From Halorubrum sp. F4 (GTDB taxonomy: Archaea > Halobacteriota > Halobacteria > Halobacteriales > Haloferacaceae), in the NCBI RefSeq assembly GCF_027257195.1, contig NZ_JAPDFS010000001.1:827099-891098 (forward strand): 64,000 bases of DNA, written 5' to 3'. The translations under genes and the position numbers were made by a program. Numbering within the stretch: the first letter of the stretch is position 1; each line of letters begins with the position of its first letter. Positions 1 to 10,520 of the stretch are shown here, piece by piece. The notes under the pieces were generated by a model. The model was not told the DNA's origin and ran no database searches. It worked only from the letters and a program-made list of their open reading frames with translations.

Positions 1-173
1 GTGCGTCGGCCACGGTCGGGATCGGTGGATAGCGTTTCATGTCGGGTGGGCGTGAGCGACGTCGACCGGAGGCGGTCGATCTCGGTATCGTCTCCGCGGC
101 CGACCCGGATGGTTCTTGTGGCATCACGGCGACCCCGGCCGATGAGGAAACACTCATGGCATCGGTCTGACTA

Positions 174-2855
174 GTGTTCGACATGACGGGAGCCGGCGGA
201 TCGGGGGCGAGTCGCGATCGGAACGGTGCCGGGACGGCGACGAACCGGTATCGGCCCGCCAGGCGGTCCGTGCTCCGCGGGACGGCCGGCGTGTTGTCGG
301 CGGCCGGCGTCTCGACGTGGGGGCTCACCGAGGGGCCGACGACCGCGGCGGCGACGAACCACGTCCCGGACCGGGCGGTCTACGTCGGCTCCGACGACGG
401 CTCGCTGTACGCGGTCGACGCCGAGACCGGCGAGGCGGTCTGGCGCTTCGACGATCCGAGCGACGCGGTCTCCTCCTCGCCGACGGTCGTCGACGGAACC
501 GTCTACGTCGGGTCGATCGACGGGACGCTGTACGCGGTGGACGCGACCGACGGGTCGTCCGTGTGGTCGTTCGAGATCGGTGACGGCGAGGACGGGGGGA
601 TCGTCTCCTCGCCGACCGTGGTCAACGACAGGGCGTTCGTCGGAGCCAGCTCCGGTTCGATCGTCGCGCTCGATCGCACGGGGGGAACCGAGGCGTGGCG
701 CGTCGAGGAGTCCGTGAGCGCAGTCGTCTCCTCGCCCGCCGTGGACGGCGAGACGCTCTACGCCGGGACCGAGGGCGGCGACGTCCTCGCGCTCTCGACG
801 GATGACGGGACCGAGCGGTGGCGCGCGTCGGCCCCCGAGGACGGGATCTCCTCGTCGCCAACGGTCGTCGACGGCGCCGTCTACGTCGGCTCGTTCGACA
901 ACCGGGTGTACGCGTTCGACGCCGTGGACGGGGAGCCGGCGTGGAACGCGGACCTCGAGGACATCGTCTTCTCCTCGCCGACGGTCGTCGACGGAACCGT
1001 CTACGTCGGCAGCGTCGGGGCCACCGTCGGGCTCCACGCCCTCGACGCGGGGACGGGCGACCGGCAGTGGGCCACCGACGGGATCCCCGGCGTGGTCTCC
1101 TCGCCGACGGTCGTCGACGGAACCGTCTACGTCGGCAGCGTCGACGGGTCGCTGTACGCGGTCGACGCCGAGACCGGCGACGTGGAGTGGGCTGCGGGGG
1201 CGAGCGACCAGGTGAACTCCTCGCCGACCGTCTCCGACGGGACGGCCTTCGTGGGGGACGCCGCCGGCACGCTGTACGGGTTCGACGTCGAGACCGCCGA
1301 GGAGCGGTGGCGATTCGACGATCCCGGGGACGCGATATTCTCCTCGCCCACCGTCGTCGACCTCGTGGGAGAGGGACACGGCGTCGGCTCGCGGACGACG
1401 CTCGGGACGCTCGGGCACCATCACTCGGCTGCGGGCGTCGAGTTCGAGGGTGGAAGCGGCTCGACCGGTTCGGACGACTCGACCGATCCGACCGGCTCGG
1501 ACGACTCATCCGTCGACGGGTCCGGGTCGTCGGACGGCGGTGCCGACGAGTCGGGAGCCGGCTCGATCGACGGCTCCACGGCCGGTTCGGGCTCGTCGGG
1601 ATGGGCGAGTCGAGTTCCGGCGGTCGGGCTTCTCGGCGCGGCGGGCGGACTCACGGTCGGCGCGCTCGCCGCGTATCGGTTCCTCGGCGGGGACTCGGAC
1701 GAAACGTCCTCGGGAGCGGGATCGGAGGCCGGCTCCCCGGCGGGGCGGCCGTCGACGACGGATGCCGCGGGTTCGGCGACTGTGACGGAAGCCACCGGAA
1801 CCGACGAGTCGGATACGGGCACCGCCGGGACTGAATCCGCGCAGGCCACCGTCGACGAGGGTACGGCGTCGTCGTCGGCATCGCCGGCGTCGACGAACGA
1901 CACCTCGGGGGCATCGACGATCGACTCCTCGGGCGCGTCATCCGGGAGTTCTTCGGCCGAATCGGCCGACTCGACCGACTCGATCGATTCGACGGCCGAT
2001 CCGGAAACGGCTCAACTCGGCGAGGACGCGCCTCGATCCGACGTCGAAACTGCCGACTCGATCGGCGGCCCGGACGAGGACGCGTTGCTCGCGGCGGTGG
2101 ACGAACTCACGTCGATCGAGACGGTCGGTTCCACCGGGGCGCTCGTCGCGTACGCCGTCACGGACGAGCGGATCGACGGGGGTGACGGACGGGTTCTCGC
2201 GCTGCCGGACGCGGAGCCGGCGGTCGCCGACCGGTTCGAATCGGTCGCGACCGACTGGGGCAGCGTCAGCCACTACGACGGGATCGCCACGGTATACGGG
2301 TCGGGTACCGAGCCGTACCCGTGGGTGCTCACCGACCCGCTCCAGGGAGTTCCGACGCTCGCGGCGCATCTCGACGACCCGCCCGAGAACCCCGCAGACC
2401 GGCTCTCGCCCGTCGTCGACGCCGCCGAGGCGTTGTCACAGGCCAGCCGGTACACGGTCAGACATTACTACCTCTCGCCGGAGACGGTCCGGGTCGTCGG
2501 TTCGGGGACGGAGCCGACCGGGATCGTCGACGACTGGGGGATCGAGTCGGTGACCGAAACGGCCGAACACGGAACGCGCGCGTCCTCGCCGTACACCGCG
2601 CCGGAACAGCTCCCCGACTCCGACGAGCCCCTCTGGCGGGGAAAACCCGACACGTACGCGCTCGGGGCACTCGCGTACCACGCCGCGACGGGGAGCCCGC
2701 CCGCGGACCACCGTCCCGCGAAGCCGAGCGAACACGCCGGCGTCCCCTCCGAACTCGACCGACCGATAACCCGCGCCATCGACCCGGACCCGGACGAACG
2801 GTACGACTCGATCGGCGAGTTCGCGCGAGTGCTCAGGTTGGCCGTCTTCGATTGA
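174..2855 (+). CDS. Tat-exported PQQ beta-propeller protein with TM helix and kinase-like C-terminal domain
   Basis: 893 aa, starting at GTG 174 (an in-frame ATG at 183 is equally possible). A twin-arginine motif (R30-R31, RRSVLRG) precedes a hydrophobic stretch. Residues about 65-440 contain many copies of a PQQ/WD-like strand motif (VYVGS.DG.LYAVDA..G, alternating with SSPTVVDG), a typical beta-propeller. A Ser/Asp/Gly-rich linker leads to one TM helix at about 482-507, then a second Ser/Thr/Asp-rich linker. Residues about 640-893 resemble a protein kinase: a Y807-TAPE activation-segment end, D-W-G at 787-789 in the DFG place, and an HRDLKPEN-like stretch in which the catalytic Asp is Tyr766. 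The predicted topology is propeller outside and kinase-like domain inside. The missing catalytic Asp suggests a pseudokinase. It faces the tubulin-like operon. No clear promoter was seen in bases 1-173. Confidence 0.8.
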   Translation: MFDMTGAGGSGASRDRNGAGTATNRYRPARRSVLRGTAGVLSAAGVSTWGLTEGPTTAAATNHVPDRAVYVGSDDGSLYAVDAETGEAVWRFDDPSDAVSSSPTVVDGTVYVGSIDGTLYAVDATDGSSVWSFEIGDGEDGGIVSSPTVVNDRAFVGASSGSIVALDRTGGTEAWRVEESVSAVVSSPAVDGETLYAGTEGGDVLALSTDDGTERWRASAPEDGISSSPTVVDGAVYVGSFDNRVYAFDAVDGEPAWNADLEDIVFSSPTVVDGTVYVGSVGATVGLHALDAGTGDRQWATDGIPGVVSSPTVVDGTVYVGSVDGSLYAVDAETGDVEWAAGASDQVNSSPTVSDGTAFVGDAAGTLYGFDVETAEERWRFDDPGDAIFSSPTVVDLVGEGHGVGSRTTLGTLGHHHSAAGVEFEGGSGSTGSDDSTDPTGSDDSSVDGSGSSDGGADESGAGSIDGSTAGSGSSGWASRVPAVGLLGAAGGLTVGALAAYRFLGGDSDETSSGAGSEAGSPAGRPSTTDAAGSATVTEATGTDESDTGTAGTESAQATVDEGTASSSASPASTNDTSGASTIDSSGASSGSSSAESADSTDSIDSTADPETAQLGEDAPRSDVETADSIGGPDEDALLAAVDELTSIETVGSTGALVAYAVTDERIDGGDGRVLALPDAEPAVADRFESVATDWGSVSHYDGIATVYGSGTEPYPWVLTDPLQGVPTLAAHLDDPPENPADRLSPVVDAAEALSQASRYTVRHYYLSPETVRVVGSGTEPTGIVDDWGIESVTETAEHGTRASSPYTAPEQLPDSDEPLWRGKPDTYALGALAYHAATGSPPADHRPAKPSEHAGVPSELDRPITRAIDPDPDERYDSIGEFARVLRLAVFD

Positions 2856-2978
2856 ACCCGTCGACCGTGCGACCGGACGTCGGCGGATCGGGACCCGTGT
2901 ACCCCGATCGACGTCGGTACCGACCCGATCCAAACCCGACATTGGTTCGATATCGATCTCGAGAATAGATGGACAAGT

Positions 2979-2986
2979 GATATATC
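2979..2986 (+). promoter_or_regulatory. TATA-box-like element for the 3011 lipoprotein
   Basis: GATATATC lies about 28 bp before the ATG at 3011, the spacing expected for a leaderless haloarchaeal transcript. Confidence 0.5.
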
Positions 2987-3010
2987 TGGCGACGAGGAAC
3001 GTGTCAGCGT

Positions 3011-3688
3011 ATGCCATCACGTCGTCGAGTCCTGGTTGCGGGGGCCACGGCAGGAACGATCGCCCTTAGCGGGTGTACCGACGCCGTCGAGATCGCGACA
3101 CAGGAGGAGATCGAGCGCTCGGCGGAACCGGCCGAACCGAACGAGACGAGCGTCGAGGAGACCGGCTTCGAGCAGGTTCGAAGCGAGACCGTCGTCGTCG
3201 AGGAGGAGTTCGAGGAGTTCGGACAGCGCCGGGAGTTCACGGCCCGGACGGAGGTCCGCGCGTACATCCGGGAGATCGAGTCGGAGCTGACCGGCCAGGA
3301 GGAGTCGGTGTTCGCCGTCGTGAGCACGCCCGGCGTCGACGCCGCCGGCCAGCAGCTCAGCCCGCTCGCGAACATGGACGAGGAGGAACTGATCGAGGAG
3401 GCGCGCGGCGAGATAAGCGGGGAGTTCGACGGCGAGATCGAGGACCCGGAGCTGGACGAGACGATCGAACAGGAGATCTACGGCGAGACGAGGGAGGTGA
3501 GCGTCTACGAGGTGACCGTGATACTGCCCGACGGCACCGAAGAGCAGGGGTACCTCCACCTCACGATCGTCGAGCGCGGCGAGGACGTCGTACTCGTCGC
3601 CGGCGCGTATCCCGCGGACGTCGAGGGCGAACGCGAGCGCATCGAGCGGCTGTTCGAATCGCTGGAGGGCGGGGAAAACGAGTCGTGA
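3011..3688 (+). CDS. Haloarchaeal lipoprotein, DUF6517-like
   Basis: 225 aa. The N-terminus has RRR followed by a short hydrophobic stretch ending in a lipobox (LSGC at about 19-22), so it is probably exported by Tat and lipid-anchored on the outside. The mature part is very acidic (Glu-rich) with no enzymatic motif that I recognise. Layout and composition recall the haloarchaeal DUF6517 family, which is an assignment from memory. It lies between the propeller/kinase-like gene, on the same strand, and the convergent tubulin-like operon, so it could be an envelope partner of either. The ATG is supported by the TATA-like element 28 bp upstream. Confidence 0.7.
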   Translation: MPSRRRVLVAGATAGTIALSGCTDAVEIATQEEIERSAEPAEPNETSVEETGFEQVRSETVVVEEEFEEFGQRREFTARTEVRAYIREIESELTGQEESVFAVVSTPGVDAAGQQLSPLANMDEEELIEEARGEISGEFDGEIEDPELDETIEQEIYGETREVSVYEVTVILPDGTEEQGYLHLTIVERGEDVVLVAGAYPADVEGERERIERLFESLEGGENES

Positions 3689-3719
3689 GTCGTGAGAAAG
3701 AGAGCGATGATTAGCGGCG

Positions 3720-3738
3720 ATCGACGGGGAGCGTCGAT
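3720..3738. terminator. Hairpin between convergent genes
   Basis: ATCGACG and CGTCGAT form a 7-bp inverted repeat with a 5-nt loop between the lipoprotein stop at 3688 and the convergent operon end at 3747. There is no T-tract, so a terminator role is only possible. Confidence 0.3.
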
Positions 3739-3746
3739 GCCGAGTC

Positions 3747-5699
3747 TCAGCCAGTGACGGTCATCCGGATGTCCTGTTCCACCGTTTCTCCGGGTTCAAC
3801 CGTGACGTCGACGGAGGTATCCTCGGTACCGCCTCGCTCCGCCTCGATGGTGTAGTCGCCGGGTGCGACGGAGTCGAACGCGTAGTTTCCGTTGCTGTCC
3901 GAGGTGACGGTTTCGACGGTCTCATCGTCGGAGTTCACGAGCGTGAGATCAGCGCCGTTGAGTTCGGATCCGTCGTCGGCGTCGCGTACGACGCCCTCGA
4001 TCGAGCCGAACTGTGCGAGCTCGAAGTTCTCCTCAACGTCGTCGTCGCCGGTAACGGTGGCCGTATCGGTCGTGTATCCGTCCAGGCTGGCTTCGACCTC
4101 GTACTCACCCGCCGGGATGTCATCGATCTCGTAGGCTCCGCCTGCGGGAGTCGTATCCGAGAACCCGTCCGCGGTCGTCAGCGTGACCTCCGCACCGTCA
4201 AGCCCTTGATCGTTCGTGTCCGTCACCGTTCCGGAGAGCGTGAACGAACTCTCCTCGAGCGTGATCTCGCCCTGTTCGCCGAAGGACTCGACCGACTGGT
4301 TGACGGGCTCGTATCCCGGGGCCGCCGCGTGGACCGTGTAGCTCCCGTCGGGATCGACGCTGAACTGGTAGCTTCCGCCCTCCGTCGAGTCCGAGACCTC
4401 GTCGCTCCCGTCGAGGAGTTCGACCGTCGCGTTGAGCTCGTCACCGTTCGCGTCGACGACGGTTCCGCTCACGGTCGCGCTCGTCGGTGCGAGCTCGACC
4501 TCGTTGGTCCCGTTCTCGGTGACGTCGACCTCCTCGGTTCCGTACTCGAATACGTCGGTCGAGCCGGCTGTGACCTCGTAGGTCCCGGTCGACACGTTCT
4601 CCAAGGTGAAGGTCCCGCCGTCCGTCATCGTCGTGTTCGTCGGCCCGTCAGTTTCGTTCCCGTTTCCGTCCGCTATCCGTTCCGCGGTCACGTCCACGTC
4701 CGTCCCGATCGCCTCGCCGTCGGCGTCGACGACGGTCCCGCTCATCGACGCGAGGGCGGCGCCCGTGCCGTTCGCGGTCCCGTTCCCGGTGGCTCCGCCG
4801 TCGTCGCCGCCGATCAATCCGAGCGCGGAGGCCCCGAAGAAGCCGCCGATCAACACGATCAACACGACGGCCGCGATGGCGACGTACTTGCCGATCTCCG
4901 CCATGTCGAATCGGCTCGAGGAGCCCGCACTCGAGAGCCGGTCGGTCGTCGATCCGCCGGAACTCGGCGCGCTCAACGCCGGGACGCGTTGGCTGACCCG
5001 CCGGCGTATCTCCGAGCTCGAGAGACCGTGCTCCCGAGAGAGCGTCTGAACCGACTCGTTGATCGAGGCGATCTCCTCGTCGATGAGCCGGCTCCGGATC
5101 GACTCCTTCGTCGACTCCCACCGTTCCTCGGTACCGCCGACCGGAACGATGCCGCTCGATCCGTTCGGGGCGACGACCAGGTCGAAGTCCGACAGCGCGT
5201 TCGACTCCGGCGAGTCGGCGACGGCGGCACGGTTGTACGTACCCATGAACTCGTTGACGAGTCCGAGCGCGCCCTCGGCGTCGCGTACGCCGACGGTCCC
5301 GCCCTGCCGCGAGCCGATCAGCTCCTCGAGTATCGCACGGTCCTGGGTGCTTCCCGGCAGCGAGGTCTGGCCGGCGTCGAGCGCCCGGAAGACGCTCATG
5401 TCGTCGGCGGAGTCGTCTATCGTGTACCCCCACTCGCTTTCGATCCGGTCGCGGAGCGCGTCGATGAACTCCCGCATCGAGCCGTCCCGCGTGGTGTACA
5501 CCGCGTAGAACTGCTCGGTGCGCGCGTTTCGGGTCTCCCGTGCTCGGAAGAACATCGTGAACTTTCGCTCACGGCCCGTCTCGATCGCGAGTCTGACCCC
5601 GTCGTAAAACAGGTCCTTCACCCGCTCGTTCGACCGCCCGGCCTCGCCCGTCGGCGAGTGTTCGTTCCCTTTCGTGTCGTATACGCGTAGTGATGGCAT
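3747..5699 (-). CDS. Single-pass membrane protein with four carboxypeptidase-regulatory-like repeats
   Basis: 650 aa and last gene of the tubulin-like operon, starting 6 nt after the GTPase stop. Residues 1-265 form a predicted cytoplasmic domain that I do not recognise, ending in an acidic/Ser-rich linker. One TM helix follows at about 268-297, then a Gly/Thr linker. Four beta-sandwich repeats of the carboxypeptidase-D regulatory/CNA-B type fill about 310-650, each opening with SG(T/V)V.D or EGVV.D and carrying conserved G.Y.F and Y.(V/I).A elements. The predicted topology is inside-helix-outside. It could be the surface-facing adhesin or receptor of a complex whose cytoplasmic parts are the two upstream genes, which is an inference from operon order. 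No enzymatic motif is visible. Confidence 0.8.
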   Translation of the reverse strand: MPSLRVYDTKGNEHSPTGEAGRSNERVKDLFYDGVRLAIETGRERKFTMFFRARETRNARTEQFYAVYTTRDGSMREFIDALRDRIESEWGYTIDDSADDMSVFRALDAGQTSLPGSTQDRAILEELIGSRQGGTVGVRDAEGALGLVNEFMGTYNRAAVADSPESNALSDFDLVVAPNGSSGIVPVGGTEERWESTKESIRSRLIDEEIASINESVQTLSREHGLSSSEIRRRVSQRVPALSAPSSGGSTTDRLSSAGSSSRFDMAEIGKYVAIAAVVLIVLIGGFFGASALGLIGGDDGGATGNGTANGTGAALASMSGTVVDADGEAIGTDVDVTAERIADGNGNETDGPTNTTMTDGGTFTLENVSTGTYEVTAGSTDVFEYGTEEVDVTENGTNEVELAPTSATVSGTVVDANGDELNATVELLDGSDEVSDSTEGGSYQFSVDPDGSYTVHAAAPGYEPVNQSVESFGEQGEITLEESSFTLSGTVTDTNDQGLDGAEVTLTTADGFSDTTPAGGAYEIDDIPAGEYEVEASLDGYTTDTATVTGDDDVEENFELAQFGSIEGVVRDADDGSELNGADLTLVNSDDETVETVTSDSNGNYAFDSVAPGDYTIEAERGGTEDTSVDVTVEPGETVEQDIRMTVTG

Positions 5700-5705
5700 C
5701 CGTGT

Positions 5706-7148
5706 TCACCCCATCTTCTCGAGGAGTTCGTCGAATCCGACGGTCATCACGTTCCCGTTGCGGTCGCGCATCGGAACGCGTTCCCCGTTCTCGTCGGTCG
5801 TCGTCTGGTAGTACACCGGGTGGATGTCCGACCCGGAGGTGTCCTGTACGAGCGTCCGAACCGTCTGGTTGTTCTCGATCAGCGTCTCGCTGACGAACTC
5901 CCGGAACTCGTCGAAGTACTGGTGTGCCTCGAGCGCCTGCTTGTCGCGGAACTCCTCGGCGAGGATGTCACACTTCGTCGCGACGAGAAGCACGTCCTTG
6001 TTCGAGGCGACGTCCAGGATGTCGAAGTACGGCTCGATCTCCAGCGGCTCGTTGTTTTGGTATCGTTCAACGTCGATGATCAAGATCAGCGTGTTGGCGT
6101 CGCGAACCCGCTGGGCGAGCAGCCGGAGCGTCGAGTTGTCTATCTCGTCGTCCGGACTCATCAACGCGTTCGGCAGGCGTTCGAGGTACTCGCCCGCGTA
6201 GTCGAGGCTCGACAGCTGGATGTTCTTCGGGAACACCCGGCCGTCGACGAAGTTGAAGTTCAGGTCCTCGACGTCGGTCTGGCCCGTCGCGTCGAGCTTC
6301 CAGCCGGTGTCCTTCGACGCCGCGTCGAGCGACCCGACCAGCTCCATGAGGTCGCTGCTCGGGTTCAACGGCGTGTCCGCCTCGCGACCGACCGCGTCGT
6401 CGAGCGCGGCCAGGTACTTGCCGACGAGGAAGAGCGACTTCCCCGATCCCTGCGGGCCCAACACGAAGAAGTTCTCGGAGGCGTCGTACGTCACGAAGCG
6501 GCGCAACGTGACCACGAACACCGCCGCCATGAGCGTGTTCACGCCGATGCCGGACCACTCGACGCTCACCTCCGGAGTCGGCGGCACGATCCGGACCGTC
6601 TCGGCGGAGACCTGGAGTATCTGCGGCAGGTTGAGGTGGAACTCGACCAGCCCGCCGACCACGATCGCGCTGATCAGATAGAACAGGAGCGTCGCCGACT
6701 GCCGGAACTCGAGGGCGCTCGCGGTCCGAACCTCGAGGAGCTTGGGACCGCCGCCGACGAGTCCGCCGGCGACGAAGCCGCCGAGGATCCAGACGATGTT
6801 GTCCGCGAAGTCGATGTTGGGGATGAAAAGCCCGATCGACAGCAGGGCGACGAGCGCGGAGACGGTACCCAGACACAACAGGATCCCCTGGACTCGTTTC
6901 TTCGGGTCGAGGGTCACGAGGACCAACAGCCCGAGATAGAGCCCGAACATCAGCGCGGAGAACTGTTCGAGGGTGACGCCCAAAAGCGGGTTCAACGCGA
7001 GGATCGCCGGCCGGACGATGTCCGACGCCTGCCACGCCTCCCCGAGCGAGAGGAAGAGCGGGCCGGCGACGATCACCATCACGGCGAAGTACACGACGAG
7101 AAAGACCTTCTCGCCGTTGTCTTCGAGGAACTCACCGATCGTCGTCAT
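5706..7148 (-). CDS. Membrane-anchored P-loop GTPase-like protein
   Basis: 480 aa. The N-terminal half (about 14-215) has four to six hydrophobic helices. The C-terminal half is a cytoplasmic P-loop domain with a Walker A/G1 motif GPQGSGKS at 231-238, a DYAG sequence at 316-319 in the G3 (DxxG) place, a hydrophobic strand ending in D at about 353-359, and TKCD at 391-394 matching the G4 (T/N)KxD guanine motif. This points to a TRAFAC-type GTPase rather than a general ATPase. It starts 5 nt after the tubulin-like stop and is followed within 6 nt by the surface protein. Comparative genomics has linked a family of FtsZ/tubulin relatives to a distinct GTPase in a proposed membrane-remodelling system, and this pairing fits that pattern. 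The nucleotide specificity is inferred. Confidence 0.8.
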   Translation of the reverse strand: MTTIGEFLEDNGEKVFLVVYFAVMVIVAGPLFLSLGEAWQASDIVRPAILALNPLLGVTLEQFSALMFGLYLGLLVLVTLDPKKRVQGILLCLGTVSALVALLSIGLFIPNIDFADNIVWILGGFVAGGLVGGGPKLLEVRTASALEFRQSATLLFYLISAIVVGGLVEFHLNLPQILQVSAETVRIVPPTPEVSVEWSGIGVNTLMAAVFVVTLRRFVTYDASENFFVLGPQGSGKSLFLVGKYLAALDDAVGREADTPLNPSSDLMELVGSLDAASKDTGWKLDATGQTDVEDLNFNFVDGRVFPKNIQLSSLDYAGEYLERLPNALMSPDDEIDNSTLRLLAQRVRDANTLILIIDVERYQNNEPLEIEPYFDILDVASNKDVLLVATKCDILAEEFRDKQALEAHQYFDEFREFVSETLIENNQTVRTLVQDTSGSDIHPVYYQTTTDENGERVPMRDRNGNVMTVGFDELLEKMG

Positions 7149-7153
7149 CTATC

Positions 7154-10100
7154 TCACTCGCCCCCGTCGAGCGTTTCGGAGGGCGCATCCGCCTGCTTCG
7201 CCCCGTCCGTGAACGGGACGCGCTCGATGTGTTCCCCCAAGAGGTCGCGTTTGATCTCTCCCTCGTTCCGGAGGAAGAACTGCGTGTCGTTGGGGTTCTC
7301 GAGGTTCAACACCTCGTTCCGACGGACGTAGTACCCCTCGTCGAGGCCGTGGGTGTGGTGAACCAGGATGTCGGTGTCGTCGGACGCCTCCTTGGCCTGG
7401 TACCCGGTCTGGTACCCGTCGGCTTCGACCTCCGCGCGGAGGTTGTCCAGGAAGATCCCGTCGATGAAGATCCCGAGCCCGATGTCCCAGCTTCCGCCTG
7501 CCTCGACCGGGAACGAGGCGAAGTTCTCGCTACCGGCACCCAGGTTGTACGCGCCCTGGAAGACGGGTTTGAGGTCGGCCACGTCGCCGATCTGGTTTAT
7601 CGCCCGGCTCATCACGCCGACGACGATGTTCATGTCGTTGTATCGGGAGCGGTCGCCGCTGATCCGGCGTTTCCGGATCCCGGTGTACTTGGGGTTGTGT
7701 GCGTTCTTCGCGAGCTCCTCTAAGGAGCCGCGGAGCCGCTGTTTCTCCGTCTCGTCGTCGAACAGTTTGCTCTCGGCGATGTCGGCGTCGTCGCGGAGCT
7801 GGAGGATGTCGTGGGGTTTGACCGTCTTGACGTAGTGATACTCCTCGTCCTCGGTCGAGACGGACGTCTCCCGGCTCTCGTTGTAGTTCTCCCGGAGGTT
7901 GCGGTACTTGCTCTGTGAGTTGATGAACACGTCGCGCGGACCGTTGAGCTCCTCGAAGAGGCTGACCGTGCCCTCGTACAGATCGGCTTTGTGTTCCGCG
8001 TCCTCGAGCTCCGACTGGAGCTCGTCGCGGCGACGCTCGATGTCGTCGGTCTCGACGACCTCGTCTTTGATCAGCTCCTCGAACTCGCGCGCGAGCTCGG
8101 AGAAGCTCGCGCCCGAGTCGAGCTGACGTTCGATCTCGTCGAGCGCCCGCGGACTGTCGGTCTCGAGTTCGGCACGGGTCTCGGTGACGATGTCCCGGCG
8201 GCGGTCCTCGAGCTCCTCCTCTATCGTCCGCTGGAGGCTGTCGACGGAGAACTCCAGCTCGATCGACAACGAGTCCCCGGCACGGGAGATCGCGAAGACC
8301 TCGTTGTCGTCGAGCTGGTTGCGTTTCATCCGGTAGTTCTTCTGTGCCTGCTTGCGCTCCTCCTCGCCTGAGGTGTCCCACGGGAGGATGGATTCGATGG
8401 TGCCCTCCTCCTGGTTCATCAGGAGGAACGCCTCCTTCGCGTCGGCCAGGTCGGCGAGCGAGCCGTTTATCCGTCGTTCGGTGTCGGAGACGTTGATCCC
8501 GACGCGGTCGAGCTCCTCGGAGAGCTCGTTGAGCGTGCTCCGTACCTGTCCGTCGCTCACCGCCTCGAGCTGGTCCTCGGTCTCCGCGTTCTTCACCTCG
8601 CGGGCGTACGTCTCGAGCGCCATCTCGAGTTCGTCACCCATCCGCTCGGCGTCGATCGACCGGCAGTCCTCGTACTCCTCGTAGATGGGCTGAACCGACC
8701 GCTCCCACTCGTCGACGCGACGGTCGACCTCGTCCTGTTGGGACCGCCGTCGCTCCTCGAGCTCCTCGTCCGCGTCCTCGAGGTCCGCCTGGAGCCGGTC
8801 GCGGCGATCGGTCGCCTCCTCGAGTTTGGCCTCGAGCTGGTTGAGCCGGACGCCGGCGTTTATCGCCTCGTCCTCCAGAGCGAGGAGGTAGCTGATCGTG
8901 CTCTCGACGCGGTTATCGTCGACGGCGCGGAGCCGCACGAGCAGGTCCTTCCGATGTGCGAGGCGGTTCAGCTCGTCGCGGATCACGTCGCCGAGCTGTT
9001 TGTCGATGCTGTCGACGAACTGCTCGCCGTCGGTGCTCACCTCGGCGGTCCCGGCGCGGATGGAGCCGCCGATCACTTCGATGAGCTCGACGATGTCGTC
9101 CGTCTCCATCTCGGCCTCCGAGACGATCTCGCGGTAGATCGAGACCGACTCGTAGTCGAGCTCGGTGAAGAGATCGAGGTCGAGCAGCGATTTCACGTTG
9201 TTGAGCCGCGTCTCGAGGTCGGTCCGGTCGGAGTCGTGAAGCTCGCCGTTCATTCCGTCGGGGCTCCACTCGCGTGAGAGGAACCGGTCGACGCCCGCGT
9301 AGATGTCCGCCTCCGCCTCGAGGGCGTCCTGTTTGGCGTTCAGGATGTCCTTCGTGACGGTTTTCGCGTCCTGGATCGCGTCGACGTTGTACCGGAGTAC
9401 CTGCGGGATCCCGATGATGAACGGCGCGTGGGAGGGCGTGTCCGCGAACGGGTCCTCCATGTCCATCATGTTGTAGTAGGTGGCGATCAGGTAGATCGCC
9501 GCCCGGTCGAACTCCAGGAGTGCGTCGGAGCTCTGGAGGATGTTCGCCTTCTTTCCCCCGAACCCGGTGGGGTCGATCGGGATGAGGACCCGGTCCTTGA
9601 ACAGGTCCTCGTCCTGAAGGCTCAGATACTCGAGCTCGGAGAGCGCGGCGTGTGCGTTCGCGTTCTCCGCGTCGCCCTCGTCGTCGTTCGGCAACACGCC
9701 GAACAGCGTGATCTCCGCGGTCCGCTGCGTGCGCTTGAGGTGTTTGACGAGGTCGATGAAGATCCCCGAACCGGACCCGCCGCCGAGTCCGGCGATGACC
9801 GCGACCTTCCCGCGGCCCGGGAGGTCGATGGCCGTCCGGACGTCGTCGTCCTCGGCGTACGCCTTGTAGTAGAGCCCCTTCCCCAGACCGCGCTTCCGGA
9901 CGACGCCGGTGGCGAAGTCGAGGTTCTCGTTGATGAACTCCGGCTGGAGCCACCAGTTCTCCTCCTCCATCCCGACGCCCGAGGCGATCCGCGGCACCGC
10001 CTCCTCGCCGATGAGGTCGTTCTGGTCGTGGAGCTGGATGTTCCGGGTGAGCGGGAGGTACTCGATGGTGATCTCTCCCGGTCGGCCGGTGTGTTCCGAA

Positions 10101-10324
10101 CGGAGCCGGTCTTTGGTCTCCTGGATCTGCTGTTCGATCTCCTTGATTCGTTCGAGGTCACGGTTCTCCTCCTCCTCCGCCGTGTCGATCACGGTCACGG
10201 TCAACGTCTCGGGGTTCGGGCGGGGCCGCAGGACCGCCTCCTGGACCCAATCGGCTTTCAGAAGTTCGTACGTAATGGCCTTCCCAGCACCCCCGATCGC
10301 AAATATCCTGCTTGGGAGATTCAT
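7154..10324 (-). CDS. Large tubulin/FtsZ-superfamily protein with coiled coils
   Basis: 1056 aa from ATG 10324. A TTG at 10336 lies too close to the TATA box to be a likely start. The N-terminus has a nucleotide-fold GGAGK loop at 11-15 and a tubulin signature GGGSGSG at 181-187, followed by a hydrophobic helix and NDD (T5-like). This matches the Tubulin-like (Tubulin_2) group more than FtsZ or CetZ, which are about 350-400 aa. Residues about 470-570 and 640-830 are charged heptad-rich coiled coils. A globular C-terminal domain at about 900-1040 is conserved-looking but unknown to me. The role is probably nucleotide-dependent polymerisation at the membrane. It heads an operon with the GTPase and the beta-sandwich membrane protein at 5- and 6-nt gaps, which argues for one complex. 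Confidence 0.85.
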   Translation of the reverse strand: MNLPSRIFAIGGAGKAITYELLKADWVQEAVLRPRPNPETLTVTVIDTAEEEENRDLERIKEIEQQIQETKDRLRSEHTGRPGEITIEYLPLTRNIQLHDQNDLIGEEAVPRIASGVGMEEENWWLQPEFINENLDFATGVVRKRGLGKGLYYKAYAEDDDVRTAIDLPGRGKVAVIAGLGGGSGSGIFIDLVKHLKRTQRTAEITLFGVLPNDDEGDAENANAHAALSELEYLSLQDEDLFKDRVLIPIDPTGFGGKKANILQSSDALLEFDRAAIYLIATYYNMMDMEDPFADTPSHAPFIIGIPQVLRYNVDAIQDAKTVTKDILNAKQDALEAEADIYAGVDRFLSREWSPDGMNGELHDSDRTDLETRLNNVKSLLDLDLFTELDYESVSIYREIVSEAEMETDDIVELIEVIGGSIRAGTAEVSTDGEQFVDSIDKQLGDVIRDELNRLAHRKDLLVRLRAVDDNRVESTISYLLALEDEAINAGVRLNQLEAKLEEATDRRDRLQADLEDADEELEERRRSQQDEVDRRVDEWERSVQPIYEEYEDCRSIDAERMGDELEMALETYAREVKNAETEDQLEAVSDGQVRSTLNELSEELDRVGINVSDTERRINGSLADLADAKEAFLLMNQEEGTIESILPWDTSGEEERKQAQKNYRMKRNQLDDNEVFAISRAGDSLSIELEFSVDSLQRTIEEELEDRRRDIVTETRAELETDSPRALDEIERQLDSGASFSELAREFEELIKDEVVETDDIERRRDELQSELEDAEHKADLYEGTVSLFEELNGPRDVFINSQSKYRNLRENYNESRETSVSTEDEEYHYVKTVKPHDILQLRDDADIAESKLFDDETEKQRLRGSLEELAKNAHNPKYTGIRKRRISGDRSRYNDMNIVVGVMSRAINQIGDVADLKPVFQGAYNLGAGSENFASFPVEAGGSWDIGLGIFIDGIFLDNLRAEVEADGYQTGYQAKEASDDTDILVHHTHGLDEGYYVRRNEVLNLENPNDTQFFLRNEGEIKRDLLGEHIERVPFTDGAKQADAPSETLDGGE

Positions 10325-10351
10325 GCTGACATCCAACGATCCTTACAACTA

Positions 10352-10361
10352 TCTATAAATT
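10352..10361 (-). promoter_or_regulatory. TATA box of the tubulin-like operon
   Basis: Read on the minus strand this is TAATTTATAG. Its centre is about 32 bp from ATG 10324, giving a near-leaderless transcript. It is only about 20 bp from TTG 10336, which argues for the ATG as start. Confidence 0.65.
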
Positions 10362-10520
10362 ATTCGATGGCTGGACGTTTTGTTGACAGATCTCGGAAAC
10401 GAATCCGGGTGGATCGACGGCTCTCGATCGTCCATTATCCACTATCGGCTCGTTCGTTTCCCAGTCTTCGGCTCGTCCGTTCCCCACAGCTACAAACCGG
10501 CCCGCGTGGTACGGGTGGGC

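Follow-up and report, generated by a model that had tools for sequence, protein, structure and literature searches.

Within a 64,000-nucleotide stretch of the Halorubrum sp. F4 genome (contig NZ_JAPDFS010000001.1, positions 827,099 to 891,098; hereafter the window), we characterized a five-gene block built around three minus-strand genes that run from 10324 to 3747 with intergenic gaps of 5 and 6 nt. This trio encodes a protein of the FtsZl1 family of the tubulin superfamily (P0001), a membrane P-loop GTPase (P0002) and a single-pass surface protein (P0003). The initial annotation of the stretch had given the same genes, sizes and gaps, leaving the strand unstated, and did not include the two further block genes at 174-3688. 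The block and the features of the trio are, in window coordinates:

5-10473, strand not applicable: five-gene block, present or absent as a unit, with ~154 bp in its place in two related genomes
7154-10324, minus: FtsZl1/Tubulin_2 gene (P0001), 1056 amino acids (aa), from the Pfam Tubulin_2 match, profile matches to PDB chains and the model fold
9764-9784, minus: T4 GTP-binding loop GGGSGSG, P0001 residues 181-187, from the motif position
7862-9349, minus: helical/coiled-coil arm, P0001 residues ~326-821, a predicted insertion between two core parts
5706-7148, minus: membrane P-loop GTPase gene (P0002), 480 aa, from G1, G3 and G4 motifs and four hydrophobic segments
6435-6458, minus: G1 P-loop GPQGSGKS, P0002 residues 231-238, from the motif position
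3747-5699, minus: third-component gene (P0003), 650 aa, with a cytoplasmic N-terminal domain (N-domain), one helix and four CarboxypepD_reg repeats outside
5355-5699, minus: conserved cytoplasmic N-domain of P0003, residues 1-115, predicted b-b-a-b-b-b-a-a, weakly longin-like
4803-4910, minus: P0003 transmembrane segment, residues 264-299, from hydropathy
3750-4802, minus: P0003 ectodomain, fast-changing and with most N-x-S/T sequons, from pairwise identity and sequon count

The three proteins of the trio

The product of gene 1 belongs to the tubulin/FtsZ superfamily and its N-terminal part is tubulin-like, as the initial annotation had proposed. It scored 38.7 bits against Pfam Tubulin_2 (PF13809; cut-off 27, E-value 9.4e-10), its profile matched TubZ and FtsZ/CetZ among PDB chains, and the tubulin-family fold matches of its structure model lay within residues 2-315, with residues 4-292 superposing on residues 3-248 of tubulin (5lxt_B); the H7 region would fall inside this stretch, at low confidence. 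An NCBIfam scan of the gene gave no match. The T4 loop fits the pattern GGG[TS]G[ST]G, its five glycines being invariant across 22 aligned sequences including that of the window, and many relatives carry T where the window has S. The ATG at 10324 aligns with the start of most P0001 relatives, a TTG 12 nt upstream providing an alternative start. The model is poor because it rests on 13 close sequences, the scan of viral contigs with alignment A1 having added no relative. Two sequences cut by locus ends (L029 and L031) were left out of A1, and one with a broken gene 1 frame and masked bases (L043) was left out of A1, A2 and A5.

Long helices were modelled between residues 490 and 817 (block predicted local distance difference test, pLDDT, of 80-92 over 501-630), and the C-terminal domain that follows the arm mostly at pLDDT below 50; the FtsZl1 family is characterized by an extended coiled coil behind the N-terminal domain and then a C-terminal domain that is mostly helical. 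The position of this arm can be read from two short FtsZl1 paralogues of 560 and 562 aa, found in genomes G008 and G171 together with full-length relatives. Aligned with the long forms, they keep residues ~1-325 and 822-1044 (P0001 numbering) and miss the stretch between. Because exactly the arm is missing and both flanks are kept, the alignments indicate that the coiled coil is no tail but an inserted stretch of ~495 residues, which divides the core into two parts, the first of them tubulin-like. The T4 loop of the short paralogues is damaged (GLGGAT-SG). At their loci (L057:3931-5613 and L058:6155-7843), no GTPase or third gene was called beside these arm-less genes by the simple purpose-made script used for gene calling, which may miss or miscall small genes and which missed the GTPase that L034 does carry.

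The second protein carries the motifs reported initially, GPQGSGKS at residue 231, DYAG at 316 and TKCD at 391, together with four segments above the hydropathy threshold, consistent with a membrane P-loop GTPase whose GTPase domain covers residues ~220-480. Of 14 aligned sequences, 13 retain the G1, G3 and G4 motifs, the exception being a divergent paralogue (L025) that lost the P-loop. For P0002, a Pfam scan gave nothing over a cut-off, the DO-GTPase2 profile reached 11.3 bits, far below its cut-off of 27, the NCBIfam scan gave a sub-threshold Era match only, and a profile search for a solved relative returned nothing significant (best E-value 0.071, a synthetase).

The third protein combines a single hydrophobic segment (residues 264-299) with four CarboxypepD_reg stretches (Pfam E-value 3.6e-49), in agreement with the one-helix protein with four regulatory-like repeats described at first. 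N-x-S/T sequons number 8 in residues 293-650 versus 2 in residues 1-266. Pairwise comparison of seven close sequences (21 pairs, from the window and six named loci) put mean identity at 95% for FtsZl1, 96% for the GTPase and 93% for the P0003 N-domain versus 58% for the ectodomain, for which identity falls to 44% and length ranges from 273 to 353 residues. This divergence could equally come from low constraint or repeat shuffling as from selection. Furthermore, the N-domain occurs in relatives with other ectodomains, and sequence comparison thus indicates that the predicted cytoplasmic domain is conserved while ectodomains are swapped.

The N-domain was modelled with block pLDDT of 79-94 over residues 1-110, and comparison of the model with known folds (Foldseek, VIA-align) suggested a weak likeness to longin domains; in the VIA comparisons of the P0001 and P0003 N-domain models, a fold missing from the match list is not thereby excluded. 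No longin or roadblock chain was among the 13 sequences matched by the N-domain at E-values up to 10. MglB, Mon1-Ccz1, TRAPP and Ragulator are longin/roadblock regulators of small GTPases. With such regulators (PMC10933270, cited from part of its text), the N-domain may share its predicted strand-helix order, and it is encoded beside a GTPase, but it continues into a membrane helix followed by surface repeats, and the likeness is weak and structural only.

Linkage of the trio and distribution of the block

The conservation of the three-gene linkage was surveyed in 243 sampled haloarchaeal genomes, with matches defined at an E-value of 1e-10 or better. Matches to P0001, P0002 and P0003 were found in 32, 34 and 26 genomes, respectively; P0001 and P0002 occur together in 30, P0001 only in 2 (G042, G081) and P0002 only in 4 (G088, G105, G139, G180). 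Full-length P0001 relatives occupy 24 places in 23 genomes, and all 24 have a P0002 match next to them, at most 300 nt further along the same strand, an adjacency beyond what chance would give. The third gene comes next in 22 of these places, recognized by a P0003 match in 20 and by blastp clustering in 2 (G222, G078), and an open frame that could not be related to P0003 stands at its position in the remaining two (G121, G174). The linkage expected from the initial annotation is therefore borne out across haloarchaea, and all 13 named loci carry the three genes, with gene 1 frame-broken in a metagenome assembly (L043:10001-12917), where the break may be an assembly error.

It also extends outside the class: the Methanohalobium evestigatum plasmid pMETEV01 encodes a tubulin-like protein, the GTPase and a third protein, ordered as in the trio; the third protein matches the P0003 N-domain profile (E-value 2.5e-33) and is annotated with a PGF-pre-PGF domain. 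Among 196 genomes sampled across the phylum, the GTPase was matched in 6, of which one (G281) lies outside the genus, its match being at the same coordinates as pMETEV01. In divergent loci, FtsZl1 is paired with a larger GTPase relative, to which six loci add a second GTPase relative (c11), degenerate in the one examined; five GTPase relatives from such loci gave no Pfam match at an E-value of 0.01. Hsp70 and vWA genes lie near one divergent locus (L059), and a J-domain (sub-threshold DnaJ, E-value 1.5e-4) joined to CarboxypepD_reg repeats adjoins another (L062:13409-15466). A GTPase gene stands without FtsZl1 beside it at L070:337-3010, where the third gene is present, and at L093:7947-9533. 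One record named Halobellus captivus (L041, NZ_RDQE01000010.1) shares 99% identity with the window protein and has the gene order of Halorubrum records, and its name may be wrong.

Genomes related to that of the window show the gene order c14, propeller/pseudokinase gene, DUF6517 lipoprotein gene, third gene, GTPase, FtsZl1, c6 (iron alcohol dehydrogenase-like by eye) and c5. Of 13 regions fetched beside the core gene c8, two (L080 and L083) reach both flanks without the trio, with c6 adjoining c14; seven show c5 and, as far as they were fetched, no trio; the trio is present in two (L073 and L076), and the other two (L074 and L075) are not long enough or break off ahead of the site. Compared with the window genome, homology in L080 and L083 stops near window position 10474-10483 and resumes at ~4, with 154 bp between. 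Because these two related genomes lack the ~10.5 kb as a whole, the unit comprises five genes that are either all there or all missing. Consistently, close pseudokinase relatives (at least 81% identity) occur in 7 of the 243 genomes, the same 7 that carry a 95-100% identical trio, all other matches being at 41% or below; in G108, one of the 7, the pseudokinase gene sits on a different contig. The Halorubrum genomes G103 and G153 carry a trio with an FtsZl1 74% identical elsewhere in the genome and none at the c5 site in the fetched stretch, a placement that suggests movement or separate acquisition. At the block edges, the two stretches searched showed short imperfect direct repeats only, no integrase or tRNA search having been made there.

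The two plus-strand genes and their relatives

The two genes that complete the block lie on the plus strand:

174-2855, plus: propeller/pseudokinase gene, start codon uncertain, with a Tat-type leader (by eye), a PQQ-like beta-propeller, one helix and a C-terminal pseudokinase domain
2091-2852, plus: C-terminal pseudokinase domain, limits approximate, from its profile relation to Pfam-called Pkinase domains
3011-3688, plus: DUF6517 lipoprotein gene, from a family match, within the variable block

The propeller protein (PQQ_2, E-value 1.7e-58) has one hydrophobic segment, and among 6 close sequences (15 pairs) its pseudokinase domain is 86% identical and its propeller 79%. Pfam alone did not justify calling it a kinase, since no Pkinase call was obtained at an E-value of 0.01. 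The pseudokinase label was given because the domain is related by profile to Pfam-called domains and because of a reading by eye: the profile links it both to a domain in L048 called Pkinase over cut-off by Pfam and to the kinase-like N-terminal domain that an extra CarboxypepD_reg protein carries, and the catalytic residues are apparently lost, with HRD replaced. The extra gene lies after the trio in four Halorubrum loci and not in the window (L032:16370-18394, L034:16659-18917, L036:16537-18885 and L039:16590-18776); it encodes the kinase-like domain, a membrane helix and CarboxypepD_reg repeats, and the one protein scanned reached 28.6 bits for Pkinase, below the cut-off of 31.7. Across 18 genomes searched, Pkinase matches lie near the trio in 3 (G050, 3 of 9 matches; G168, 8 of 15; G015, 1 of 4) and not in the other 15; in G168, seven Pkinase matches cluster round an FtsZl1 locus on contig 42, at ~50-78 kb.

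In seven other loci, the protein near the trio bears a shared helical domain instead of the pseudokinase domain. Six of the eight such proteins were scanned, four having a propeller, one CARDB and one neither. Examples of this predicted cytoplasmic domain are found at L040:16304-18628, L044:16241-19590, L046:6619-8673 and L054:13359-15587, some with MIT or helix-hairpin-helix matches below threshold; a designation as MIT was rejected, the matches being below cut-off. The DUF6517 family of the lipoprotein (E-value 2.5e-37) was searched in 13 genomes, of which 12 gave 1-3 matches each and the remaining one gave none; in G042 and G180, copies are also found close to FtsZl1 or GTPase loci.

A putative surface-to-cytoskeleton switch and its alternatives

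The block is a real and well-conserved module of a known kind, and what is most usefully added here is that it extends over five genes, that the arm is inserted, that the ectodomain changes fast and that the N-domain gives a longin-like lead. Makarova and Koonin (2010; PMC2875224, cited here, as are the papers named below, from part of its text) placed FtsZl1 with the most diverged members of the tubulin superfamily, and in a 2023 tree paper the group stands apart as divergent. The link to a published FtsZ/tubulin-GTPase proposal drawn in the initial annotation leads to this system. Its reading as a haloarchaeal version was overstated, because such a version is not new: the family was founded in 2010 on a haloarchaeal protein, Halorhabdus Huta_2051 (1051 aa), with three kinase genes at its locus. 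That system shares with the window an N-terminal FtsZ-like domain, a predicted coiled coil and a predicted C-terminal domain within ~1050 aa, and a neighbouring GTPase that is membrane-associated in the archaeal members. It differs in that the window reveals the coiled coil as a core insertion, a propeller pseudokinase as kinase-like neighbour and mapped block limits, with no vWA or OmpA protein among the five genes. A figure legend of the same paper links families A1-A2 to FtsZl1, and the third protein may be one of these. No experimental study of any FtsZl1 protein was found in the open-access literature searched, most subscription papers lying outside that scope.

From what is directly supported (gene content, linkage, presence or absence of the block, the tubulin-like N-domain, the arm insertion, the GTPase motifs, the membrane segments by sequence and the fast-changing ectodomain), we infer every interaction, the regulation of the GTPase, FtsZl1 polymerisation and the final effect. 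We tentatively favour, at somewhat less than even chances, an accessory surface-to-cytoskeleton switch, in which a membrane GTPase triggered at the surface would control the assembly of membrane-bound FtsZl1. The extracellular repeats of P0003 and the propeller of its pseudokinase neighbour would sense something outside the cell, and the cytoplasmic longin-like domain and the pseudokinase would set the nucleotide state of the GTPase, which would in turn recruit or release FtsZl1. The tubulin-like core would then assemble on the inner membrane face, with the coiled-coil arm reaching out to bind or cross-link, so that the envelope would be locally reshaped or sealed. The DUF6517 lipoprotein is weak as a specific partner, given the wide occurrence of its family. 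Counter to the linkage, G105 has a GTPase and third gene without an adjoining FtsZl1, and on a Halomicrobium plasmid the GTPase likewise has none beside it.

The patchy, block-wise presence and the ectodomain divergence would also suit a conflict (anti-invader) system, a possible but rather unlikely explanation. The block would then be the haloarchaeal form of the GTPase/tubulin systems that Kaur et al. (2020; PMC7159879) described: a virus or rival would be sensed by the variable ectodomains or by intracellular parts, with a threshold set by the GTPase and an FtsZl1 effector assembly that protects or kills the cell. These GAP1-N2 systems have in common with the window a GTPase, a coiled-coil tubulin and membrane proteins with extracellular beta-sandwich domains. 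The Hsp70, vWA and J-domain genes listed for them occur here near two divergent relatives, none of the five block genes being a vWA or Hsp70 gene, and the second GTPase relative of six divergent loci, degenerate in the one examined, points the same way. However, neither the DO-GTPase2 profile nor GAP1-N2 was matched in the window, GAP1-N2 (PF20013) finding nothing at an E-value of 1 in the whole window genome (96% complete). PADLOC gave no match for the three trio proteins, the neighbouring genes not being scanned for defence functions, and FtsZl1 had no match in the phage collection. Kaur et al. placed the tubulin theme in firmicutes and actinobacteria.

It is quite unlikely, to our judgement, that FtsZl1 is instead a non-polymerising GTP-binding scaffold whose arm tethers membrane components, with the GTPase as sole switch. 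The T6-H7 elements and a known C-terminal domain were not identifiable in the 2010 family analysis (PMC2875224), and in the short paralogues, which lack the arm and have a damaged T4 loop, the remainder of the core is retained; against this, the superposition on tubulin would include the H7 region, at low confidence, and the T4 glycines are invariant in the aligned sequences. Least probable is an export or surface-display device in which the beta-sandwich surface protein would be placed or secreted with the help of the GTPase and FtsZl1: transport or signalling had been suggested by one reviewer of the 2010 paper, and surface or secreted proteins with propeller, CARDB or PGF-pre-PGF domains recur beside the trio, but the third protein is membrane-anchored with a conserved cytoplasmic domain and is not bare cargo.

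A more specific form of the surface-to-cytoskeleton switch, speculative and on balance unlikely, would be a minimal prokaryotic signalling line in which the longin domain of a single-pass receptor acts as exchange factor or GTPase-activating protein for a membrane-embedded GTPase controlling a coiled-coil-armed tubulin. This exchangeable module with swapped sensors would represent a non-Asgard archaeal parallel to the longin-regulated GTPases of eukaryotic membranes. If the longin reading is true, surface-controlled GTPase switches acting on the cytoskeleton would exist in ordinary euryarchaea. The locus makes FtsZl1 testable through related Halorubrum with and without the whole five-gene block; the switch predicts GTP binding, GTPase-dependent localisation and binding of the N-domain to the GTPase, with the arm-less natural paralogues as controls. 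Finally, the window genome holds five other Tubulin-family matches over cut-off besides P0001; FtsZ1, FtsZ2 and CetZ have the superfamily and T4 loop in common with FtsZl1 and are separate genes.

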